Virus record (IMG/VR): IMGVR_UViG_3300005253_000056
Location: 1 to 39,961 of that record
DNA length: 39,961 bases
Source of the DNA: a virus
Reading direction: 5' to 3' (one strand)
This document shows positions 28,837 through 31,577 of this stretch, piece by piece. The translations under genes and the position numbers were made by a program. The stretch's first letter is position 1; every line of letters begins with the position of its first letter. The notes under the pieces were generated by a model that was not told the origin of the DNA, searched no databases, and was given only the letters and a program-made list of their open reading frames with translations.

Positions 28837-29313
28837 CTACCTCACGTTGGCTTCGAACCATGCGAAGTCGTCCTCGTCAAGATCAGTATATCCCCATCGG
28901 TCGATGTAATCGGATATCAGCCACGCGGTGAATGCCTCAGCGAATGCTTCTTGTCGGTGGCGTGAGGCGTATTCACCGATAGGTACACATTCGCGTTCAA
29001 AGCCTGTCATCTCATCTACGACATGGCCAAGTTCATGAATGGCCGTATGAATGTCGTATTGTCGCCCGCCCACATATCGGTTCCCCGTTGGGTGTCTTGG
29101 CAGCACGATGGTGGTTCGTCGACGTTGCGCTGGACCGTTGATGTGCCACGGATACAGGGTGTGTGCAGTGTCCCCATACTGGCGCCCATCCGGTGCGTTT
29201 CTGAAAGAGTGCAGACCAGCGAAAACGGGATCACGGAGGAACCATTCACAATCCGGGACGATCGGTACGATGTCTAGTGCTCTCCGTATCGGCTCGGACC
29301 AGCTCATCCCCAT
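28837..29313 (-). CDS. HELGH-type zinc metallopeptidase-like protein (158 aa)
   Basis: ATG 29313 follows GAGGAAGG and overlaps the end of the terminase by 10 nt. The centre carries YDIHTAIHELGHVVDEMTGF, a classic HExxH zinc site, and 30 residues on RQEAFAEAFTAWLISDY, whose Glu could be the third ligand (gluzincin layout). There is no signal peptide. It may process virion proteins or act in the procapsid. Phages with similar small metalloproteases exist, but the function here is unknown. Confidence 0.75.
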   Translation of the reverse strand: MGMSWSEPIRRALDIVPIVPDCEWFLRDPVFAGLHSFRNAPDGRQYGDTAHTLYPWHINGPAQRRRTTIVLPRHPTGNRYVGGRQYDIHTAIHELGHVVDEMTGFERECVPIGEYASRHRQEAFAEAFTAWLISDYIDRWGYTDLDEDDFAWFEANVR

Positions 29314-31577
29314 GTGAATTCCTTCCTCTTCGACAGTTCCGTGATAGCCCACACACAGTTGTGGACGACGACACCAGACGCTACGAACTCGTGGACATCA
29401 GCGACTTGGATGTCATACACGTCCTGCGCGGCGCTTGCGTAGCTCGCCACCACAGAGATGGGAACACGTTGCGGGTTTGATCCCATATTTGGATTGCCAG
29501 AACGACCGGCCACAGATCGGGCATGGGATTTGCCGCTGGTATCGGTGTTGACGGTCAGCAACCCGACGCGAGCAACGTCGTGAGCAGTAGCGTTTGTCTT
29601 TGTGCCACGCCTCCGCCTCGATGCCGCATTCCTCACAAACGACAAGGAACGAAACAGCTTGGTCCTGAATGTTGCGGGCGTGCTGACGGTGCCATGCTCG
29701 GCCTTCGTCTGATCGGTGCCAAGCAACGGTGAGCGGTCGAATGGATTCGAGATGCGCCAGATGCTTAGGTGATGTGTTATGAGTGCCGGGATGGACGGTG
29801 GCGTGGTCGCTGGGTGTGAGCGCTTCGAGGTTCGTCGGCTCGTTGTTGTCGGGATTCCCGTCGATGTGATGGACATGGTGTCCGTCTGGGATCGGTCCGT
29901 GATGGTCTTTGTACGTTTCGCGGTGGAGCGACTCGTAGCCTGACCCGCGTGGCGCAGCGTAGTAGACACGGTTCGCCCTGTTTGTGGCGTCGGGGTTTCG
30001 TTTGTAAACGACTCCGCGGTAGGTGACTGATTCCATCCAGACAGTATATCACCACACACCAGTGCATCCAGTCGTGTCCAGGTGTCGTTTGCCAACACCC
30101 GATGGTCATGGGTACCTACCAGACGTTGCCCGTCACTTAGCTCCACAGTCACCGTCGTCGCATCCCTGCGTGTCAACCTGTGCGCCTCCACATTCCGCCA
30201 ACCGTCACGAGTCCACACACGGTCACCTACCCGTATGTCGCTCAACGGCATCTCGCCTGATTCTGTGATGACAGGGGTTTCCCCGATGAGGCACGCATCC
30301 AAGCGGTTCGGCGACCACTCAGACTCACCAGGAACCCACTGAACCATCTCCCCTTCTAGCGCTGCGAGCTCGGTGACGTGATGCACCCTGCCTTGTTCGT
30401 AGAGTGCCAGTATCGGTTCGGCCCTGACCTTTTTGCCCCTCGTGGCGCGCACATACTTGTACGGCACATCCGCATCGATGTTGCGGATGGTGGATTCGAC
30501 CATGTCGCCACCGAAGTTTGATTCAGCGATGACACGGTCACCTGACCATTTGTGGTGGCTGTCGACGGCACGGCCACCCCACCGTTCGGGTGTGAGTTTC
30601 CCTGACACATCTTCGAGGACAGCGAAGTGCGGCTGCTTCTCGCCTCGGCATGGGCAATCACGCAGCACACCAGCAATGATGATCCCTGCTTCGGTTGCTC
30701 CACCGGGCGGGTCAACAGCGACGACGATACGACCAAGGTGACCGATGTCCTGACCATCAACTATCGTCGCGTCTTCGTTGTCGGGTTTCAGGAGATCCCA
30801 CTTCTGCGCCGCAGTAACCAGAGCCATCGTCCAGATAGCGCCGTCGGCTTCTTCGATGAGTTTCCCTTTCAGCTCCTGCTCACCGATCGACGTGCCGTCA
30901 TACAAATCGTGATAGCGCTGCCGAACTTCGGGGTTCAAGTTCGGGTTGTCATCCGTCTCAGCGTGAGAAATGTGGTCGGCTTGCAAACGCACTTTCACAT
31001 ACTCAGGTCGAGGTTTCGGTGTCGTCGTCGCGATGACACGAGGGTTCGGGCCTATGCGTAGACCGAGCATCATGTGTTTCCATGCTTCGTCCAACTGTCG
31101 CCACGTCGCCAACTCTTCAGCCCATACCAAGCACCTGTTGCCGCCGGCACGTAGCCGTTCGACGTCTTGACGGTTGAGTGTCCCGAACAGTCTCACTTGG
31201 GATCCGTTCGGCCACAGCACCGTCGACCCACCGGCACCAGCCGTGAACCTGGCCTTCGGATGCAACCTGACCAGCGCATCATCGTCGGTGACAGCGGATT
31301 CGATAGCGTCACCCAACGTGGGTGCGATAAGTGCGACCCTATGCGGCACCTCTGAGGAGAAGCATGGTGGCCCGTTCAAGTGTTTCGCAACGTAGCGTGC
31401 CGCACCGGCAGACTTTCCCGCGCCTCTACCTTCTTCGGCGAGCCAGAAGAACCAGTCGCCGTCGGGTGGGATCTGATGCGGATACGCTTTCGTATCCCAC
31501 CAATGATCCCCAATCTTGGTACGCACGTCAGCAATCTTCAACCGCTTCCCAGCGATGCGTTGCTGGTCGGTCAGCAT
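29304..31577 (-). CDS. Large terminase precursor (TerL) with intein
   Basis: The 757-aa precursor has N-extein residues 1-428. These include the ATPase with Walker A (EEGRGAGKSAGAARYVA, about 48-64) and Walker B-like CLVWAEELATW (about 149-159), plus the RNase-H-type nuclease (IVVAVDPPGGATEAGIIIAG). The intein (429-740) interrupts the conserved last nuclease motif exactly after SPNRLDA, and the C-extein is CVWAITELSKRKEFTWG. Splicing would give 445 aa, normal for TerL. Without splicing the nuclease motif is broken, so packaging should depend on it. Confidence 0.93.
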   Translation of the reverse strand: MLTDQQRIAGKRLKIADVRTKIGDHWWDTKAYPHQIPPDGDWFFWLAEEGRGAGKSAGAARYVAKHLNGPPCFSSEVPHRVALIAPTLGDAIESAVTDDDALVRLHPKARFTAGAGGSTVLWPNGSQVRLFGTLNRQDVERLRAGGNRCLVWAEELATWRQLDEAWKHMMLGLRIGPNPRVIATTTPKPRPEYVKVRLQADHISHAETDDNPNLNPEVRQRYHDLYDGTSIGEQELKGKLIEEADGAIWTMALVTAAQKWDLLKPDNEDATIVDGQDIGHLGRIVVAVDPPGGATEAGIIIAGVLRDCPCRGEKQPHFAVLEDVSGKLTPERWGGRAVDSHHKWSGDRVIAESNFGGDMVESTIRNIDADVPYKYVRATRGKKVRAEPILALYEQGRVHHVTELAALEGEMVQWVPGESEWSPNRLDACLIGETPVITESGEMPLSDIRVGDRVWTRDGWRNVEAHRLTRRDATTVTVELSDGQRLVGTHDHRVLANDTWTRLDALVCGDILSGWNQSPTAESFTNETPTPQTGRTVSTTLRHAGQATSRSTAKRTKTITDRSQTDTMSITSTGIPTTTSRRTSKRSHPATTPPSIPALITHHLSIWRISNPFDRSPLLGTDQTKAEHGTVSTPATFRTKLFRSLSFVRNAASRRRRGTKTNATAHDVARVGLLTVNTDTSGKSHARSVAGRSGNPNMGSNPQRVPISVVASYASAAQDVYDIQVADVHEFVASGVVVHNCVWAITELSKRKEFTWG
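29413..30036 (-). CDS. HNH homing endonuclease nested in the TerL intein in the -1 frame
   Basis: This 207-aa protein contains a full HNH motif (GHHVHHIDGNPDNNEPTNLE, then ALTPSDHATVH). Two Cys clusters follow: CEECGIEAEAWHKDKRYCSR plus CSRR, and CPICGRSFWQSKYGIKPATC plus CGGE, zinc fingers often found in such nucleases. The frame is offset -1 to the intein. An in-frame TGA lies four codons before its ATG, and its own TGA falls inside block F. It therefore cannot be made by simple read-through of the intein and needs its own start. It probably drives homing of the intein or itself. Confidence 0.88.
   Translation of the reverse strand: MESVTYRGVVYKRNPDATNRANRVYYAAPRGSGYESLHRETYKDHHGPIPDGHHVHHIDGNPDNNEPTNLEALTPSDHATVHPGTHNTSPKHLAHLESIRPLTVAWHRSDEGRAWHRQHARNIQDQAVSFLVVCEECGIEAEAWHKDKRYCSRRCSRRVADRQHRYQRQIPCPICGRSFWQSKYGIKPATCSHLCGGELRKRRAGRV
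30043..30048 (-). promoter_or_regulatory. Possible extended -10 for leaderless expression of the nested HNH
   Basis: On the minus strand TGATATACT ends six bases before the HNH ATG. The same six-base spacing separates TATAAT at 32578-32583 from the ATG at 32590. A TG-n-TATACT extended -10 would place the first transcribed base at or next to the ATG. No good -35 is visible and no Shine-Dalgarno is well placed. Confidence 0.35.

Follow-up and report, generated by a model that had tools for sequence, protein, structure and literature searches.

Among the TerL inteins of mycobacteriophages, five splice and two cut the uninvaded terL gene (Kelley et al., 2016; PMC5050341), and split inteins with an endonuclease gene lying between their halves are described for the PolB of phage MIJ3, in the passage of PMC6892783 that cites Dassa et al. 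(2009). The ShiLan domain, for its part, places an out-of-frame HNH in a phage methylase that has no splicing domains (Arsenault et al., 2025; PMC11855218), and PMC12613952 cites the same kind of case. For overlapping frames, the citing passage of PMC11855218 refers to the preprint of Gosselin et al. (bioRxiv 2025.01.02.630785) on non-canonical actinophage inteins, which preprint may contain inteins with overprinted endonucleases. Our literature search, which did not cover that preprint, yielded no paper with a complete cis-splicing intein plus an out-of-frame overprinted endonuclease.

The locus presented here is very probably a mobile intein in a phage TerL, with a homing-endonuclease gene overprinted out of frame on the intein linker. 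The window—that is, the whole stretch of DNA analyzed—carries on its minus strand a capsid-portal-terminase module with the following features:

Positions 1 to 39,961: the window, 39,961 bases, IMG/VR virus record IMGVR_UViG_3300005253_000056.
29304..31577, minus strand: terL ORF, a 757-aa precursor (Pfam Terminase_6N 4.9e-12, Terminase_6C 7.6e-06), composed of the N-extein (residues 1-428), the intein (429-740) and the C-extein (741-757).
29358..30293, minus strand: intein of 312 aa, from Cys1 to His-Asn312 with Cys at +1 (Cys429 to Asn740 of the precursor, Cys next), as delimited by Pfam, alignment, AlphaFold, Foldseek and the empty site in the relative L012; its blocks are A, CLIGETPV; B, GTHDH; F, VYDIQVADVHEF; and G, VVVHN, then Cys.
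29413..30036, minus strand: nested HNH gene, 207 aa from ATG to TGA, in the -1 (=+2) frame relative to terL (HNH_3 4.5e-15).
30037..30051, minus strand: 15-nt stretch spanning the final HNH-frame stop (TGA) and the interval up to the HNH ATG, TGATATACTGTCTGG.
29304..29357, minus strand: C-extein CVWAITELSKRKEFTWG plus the stop; the uninvaded relative L012 has Leu, not Cys, at +1.

Overlapping the end of terL on the same strand, an ORF at 28837-29352 contains a HELGH metallopeptidase-like motif and has a similar counterpart after terL in L012; a Pfam search with this ORF gave no match.

The sequence-only reading had placed splicing blocks A, B, F and G in the TerL frame, and all the coordinates check (30293..29358, minus strand). 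A Hint-fold splicing domain lies at both intein ends in frame with TerL, and the catalytic residues—C1, GTHDH of block B, and the terminal HN followed by C—are present in columns that are conserved in the relatives. Pfam Intein_splicing (PF14890) matched in this frame at 1e-7, just under the curated cut-off, yet the fold predicted for it is clear. In the AlphaFold model, built with an alignment of 23 inteins, most of both ends has a pLDDT above 90, and the bulk of residues 97-274 has one of 30-40. The splicing halves comprise approximately residues 1-90 and 270-312, with a disordered linker of some 178 residues between them. Foldseek matched this model to mini-inteins such as NpuDnaB (4o1r; TMt 0.84, rmsd 2.0). 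The stretch between blocks B and F, which had been described as rich in Ser, Thr and Arg, consists of 41% of those residues and is predicted to be disordered. According to the model, the two Hint halves would fold and splice around this linker, giving the mature TerL.

Within that linker the -1 frame had been proposed to encode a complete HNH nuclease with two Cys4 fingers, a proposal borne out by the HNH_3 (PF13392) match (E 4.5e-15) and by an AlphaFold model of mean pLDDT 95 for the product of 30036..29413 (minus strand), which contains an HNH core and two Cys4 fingers (eight Cys). The ORF overlaps intein residues 86-294, its ATG falling where the N-terminal splicing domain ends and its TGA inside block F, much as first described; the two frames are likewise both open over the 207 codons, the 757-codon terL ORF being uninterrupted. 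In these predictions the same DNA specifies a confidently folded protein when read as HNH and a loose linker when read as TerL. A profile search found I-HmuI (1u3e, E 2.7e-4) as the sole solved homologue, and Foldseek on the HNH model returned weak matches only (I-HmuI E 0.16). The catalytic His/Asp/Asn and the eight Cys show no variation across 37 sequences, including three freestanding relatives, and the HNH frame, in which stops in close relatives would have spoken against a nested gene, is intact. The proposed comparison of substitutions in both frames was also favorable: in close pairs most of the changes are at the third HNH codon position, corresponding to host-frame position 2, where they alter the host residue; for L145 and L151, 13, 7 and 20 substitutions were at HNH positions 1, 2 and 3, respectively. 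As judged from these sequences, the HNH is under purifying selection, and the host linker seems constrained mainly to remain open.

The search of databases with the HNH and the intein separately, as had been suggested, uncovered a family. We searched IMG/VR with HNH and intein profiles—those built from the full diverse sets being too loose for scanning—and classed each locus by frame. The HNH-profile set comprised 85 loci (75 distinct) in which the HNH lay out of frame between the N and C blocks of an intein, always in the -1 frame, with no stops in the host frame of any locus and 1-33 stops in the third frame; eight further HNH matches were intein-flanked with an interrupted host frame, and nine had no intein nearby. 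In an HNH-blind check with intein N-terminal profiles instead, 70 inteins possessed both splicing ends along with a match to the HNH profile, of which 63 had it in the -1 frame (48 of them new relative to the first set), 5 in the +1, and 2 in frame. Together these searches give about 120 distinct IMG/VR loci with the nested layout, at GC contents down to 30%, some of the loci counted being near-copies. The layout recurs in the isolates Tetrasphaera phage TJE1 and Acinetobacter phage Highwayman, in Rhodobacteraceae phage LS06-2018-MD07, and in a human faecal scaffold; a scan of genomes gave as its only match one Acidobacteria MAG contig, whose position agrees with L039. When 61 host proteins were scanned, terminase and intein/Hint models were the only families among the matches listed. 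The nested gene seen in this terminase is thus a real arrangement, yet it is common, not unique, and has relatives in split, mini- and +1-frame form.

Since normal inteins carry the endonuclease in frame, sequencing or assembly frameshifts that displaced an ordinary in-frame domain would produce just such an appearance. We reject this explanation as next to impossible: a second contig of 5,709 bp is identical, and the same layout is present in the isolates TJE1 and Highwayman and in more than 100 loci across the family, most of which have their own HNH-frame start and stop. Homologues with the HNH and the intein in a single frame, which had been named as the observation that would favor such an error, were absent among the HNH-profile loci, and the only two in-frame HNH inteins of the intein-anchored set, L302 (PolA) and L262, belong to non-TerL hosts. 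These two inteins also dispose of the notion that the HNH is never in frame within inteins, just as the +1 cases from the same search dispose of a single fixed (-1) frame for every nested nuclease. The +1 set includes terL (L322, L331), terL at the Walker B site (L248), DNA polymerase A (L247) and DnaX (L297); further +1 nested ORFs are found in L235, L253 and L254/L259.

Several of these loci merit description in their own right. The nuclease in the DnaX clamp-loader intein (L297:3242-3991, +1, 34% GC) is not an HNH, being instead of the DUF559 (Vsr-like) type behind zinc fingers. In the intein of a DEAD/ResIII-type helicase (L254:3170-3916, L259:3170-3916), a nested +1 ORF of about 249 codons contains the motif GGRGI...DRIDN...YEPGN, resembling phage HNH proteins; a Pfam search with the L254 ORF gave no match. 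Inteins at the TerL Walker B motif harbor +1-frame HNH ORFs that are long and contain multiple zinc fingers (L248:2954-4273, L253:2612-3799, L235:1573-2373).

To estimate how often a host frame would remain open by chance, we held the HNH protein fixed and redrew its synonymous codons from the extein usage of the same phage. This null model predicts 3.8 host-frame stops per locus and approximately 4.4 open host frames out of 75 (3.3 out of 63 for the intein-anchored set); because openness of the host frame was a condition for entering either set, the P values are inexact, and the fair comparison is between the openness of most intein-flanked HNH loci and the few per cent expected. That selection, with the eight interrupted intein-flanked matches outside it, is a minor issue, since open frames are rare under the null. 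In L297, L322 and L235, about 22, 18 and 19 host-frame stops were expected, respectively, and none was seen. For the window alone, an open host frame has a P of about 0.016 with the extein codon usage and of 0.10 with the HNH gene's own usage; accordingly, the openness at this single locus is only mildly unusual, whereas the family as a whole rules out chance. The preference for the -1 frame results from stop-codon geometry, the other frame having an expectation of 14.4 stops versus 3.8 in the one used. By these comparisons, the family as a whole maintains the two frames.

With respect to expression, 61 of 70 loci had an in-frame ATG close to where the HNH starts, versus 13.7 expected, and the upstream Shine–Dalgarno pairing had a median dG of -5.8 compared to -2.7 at internal ATGs (p = 2e-9). 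Because these ATGs and Shine–Dalgarno sites are far above background, internal initiation is the likeliest route by which the HNH would be expressed, although the window's own ATG has a weak Shine–Dalgarno sequence (dG -2.8). Programmed -1 ribosomal frameshifting, which would give a TerL-intein-HNH fusion and no separate protein, would suit the prevalence of the -1 frame, the commoner direction in bacterial frameshifting. The HNH-frame stop, however, ends 12 nt before the ATG in the window and lies 3-14 codons before the domain in most relatives, which leaves little room for frameshifting in most loci and would confine the shift site to a tiny, unconserved interval; there is no slippery heptamer in the window's stop-to-ATG interval, and some nested genes are in the +1 frame. 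Together with the enrichment of ATGs and Shine–Dalgarno sites, which favors separate initiation, these observations render frameshifting highly improbable.

The TerL of L012, whose protein is 83% identical and whose DNA around the site is 76-79% identical, is devoid of the intein, so that the insertion is precise and at a conserved host site: SPNRLDA is followed directly by LVWAITEL in L012, and by the intein and then CVWAITEL in the window, the mobility of the window's copy resting on this one uninvaded relative. Immediately around the site the identity rises to 90-100%, which may reflect the constraint on the TerL active site rather than homing. The distribution is patchy: other relatives possess split inteins, mini-inteins, or freestanding HNH genes adjoining terL or terS, and in the HNH tree, whose deep support is weak, the nested, split and freestanding states are interspersed. 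The site that in L331 is occupied by an intein with a nested HNH carries a mini-intein in L332, whose DNA is 83% identical. The comparison of L309 with L300 revealed an in-frame deletion of 414 nt that spared the 3' end of the HNH gene; by this alignment, one pair of close relatives documents an in-frame loss of the HNH part, and the nuclease can thus decay while splicing is kept.

Such losses, along with the weak start signal in the window, would fit a decayed element in which the intein still splices and the HNH is only a residual, recently inactivated ORF. We regard that state as unlikely for the window, whose HNH retains every invariant residue, its full length and a confident fold. The position of the freestanding relatives next to terL or terS could in turn point to a function of the HNH in DNA packaging as a partner of TerL, instead of in homing, after the manner of the terminase-adjacent HNH proteins of HK97-like phages; PMC10448857 discusses HNH proteins in this packaging role. 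The L012 terminase, with no HNH at the site, the mini-intein relatives without one, and the similar nested nucleases in PolA and DnaX all argue against this function, which we consider quite unlikely. The predicted HNH enzyme probably serves to spread the insert.

In Lactobacillus phage CL2 (L185:506-2771) the annotated terL stops inside the intein N half, the HNH gene comes next, and an unannotated ORF constitutes the C half, so that a split TerL intein was missed in the record. Vibrio phage 1.238.B (L006) apparently has two inteins in terL, one near the P-loop and another that is split, with an HNH gene between its halves.

In the mobile intein that we favor, the ribosome would read the TerL frame through the entire insert, whereupon the Hint halves would excise themselves together with the linker; the HNH protein would be made separately from the same mRNA, starting at its own ATG, and during co-infection would cut an intein-less terL, after which repair would copy the whole insert into the cut gene. 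The splicing, the HNH expression, the cutting and the target site are steps that we infer from the sequence.

More generally, overprinted homing-endonuclease genes probably represent a recurrent, independently evolved third intein architecture beside the in-frame and the split ones, in which the splicing protein and the nuclease are uncoupled. This architecture would be dominant among the HNH-bearing TerL inteins of phages; it would use either of the alternative frames, involve no fewer than four host proteins and two superfamilies of nuclease, and be able to give rise to mini-inteins through in-frame deletion and, perhaps, to split inteins. Inteins would thereby have a third way to carry an endonuclease, with products that share DNA and not protein, which leaves the nuclease and the splicing function free to evolve, to be expressed and to disappear independently of each other. 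The family also offers a large natural set of overlapping genes, useful for studies of overprinting, in which one frame mainly needs to stay open, as well as natural inteins that appear to tolerate some 180 disordered residues at the endonuclease site. The nested arrangement, usually missed by annotation, explains oversized terminase annotations, and a similar scan would be expected to reveal hidden nucleases in other annotated phage genes.

Compared with the described systems, the canonical large inteins have an endonuclease that shares the frame of the splicing domain, whereas here the HNH is in the -1 frame. The mycobacteriophage TerL inteins, with an endonuclease reported as an intein domain and sites in the ATPase domain (PMC5050341), differ from the window's TerL, whose nuclease is separate and out of frame and whose insertion point adjoins the DA-x-x-W/RY motif close to the C-terminus. 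Group I introns such as that of I-HmuI resemble it in having an HNH gene apart from the host reading frame; the TerL insert, in contrast, is an ORF with Hint blocks whose removal is predicted at the protein level, which argues against a group I intron. Fractured genes with split inteins share the separate endonuclease gene between the intein N and C halves, and split members of the same HNH family exist, for example in Lactobacillus phage CL2; in those systems, though, the host frame is broken and splicing occurs in trans, while terL is a single 757-codon ORF, not two, and its splicing is predicted to be in cis. The ShiLan domain likewise has an HNH out of frame in an insertion with an open host frame—in phage ShiLan we found it in the +2 (-1) frame, the same relative frame as in TerL—and its patchy distribution suggests homing. 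It differs in the order of HNH and zinc finger, in a GTG start with no ribosome-binding site detectable according to its authors (PMC11855218), and in lacking Hint domains, so that the insert is believed to stay in the host protein, whereas in the window a full Hint domain flanks the HNH.
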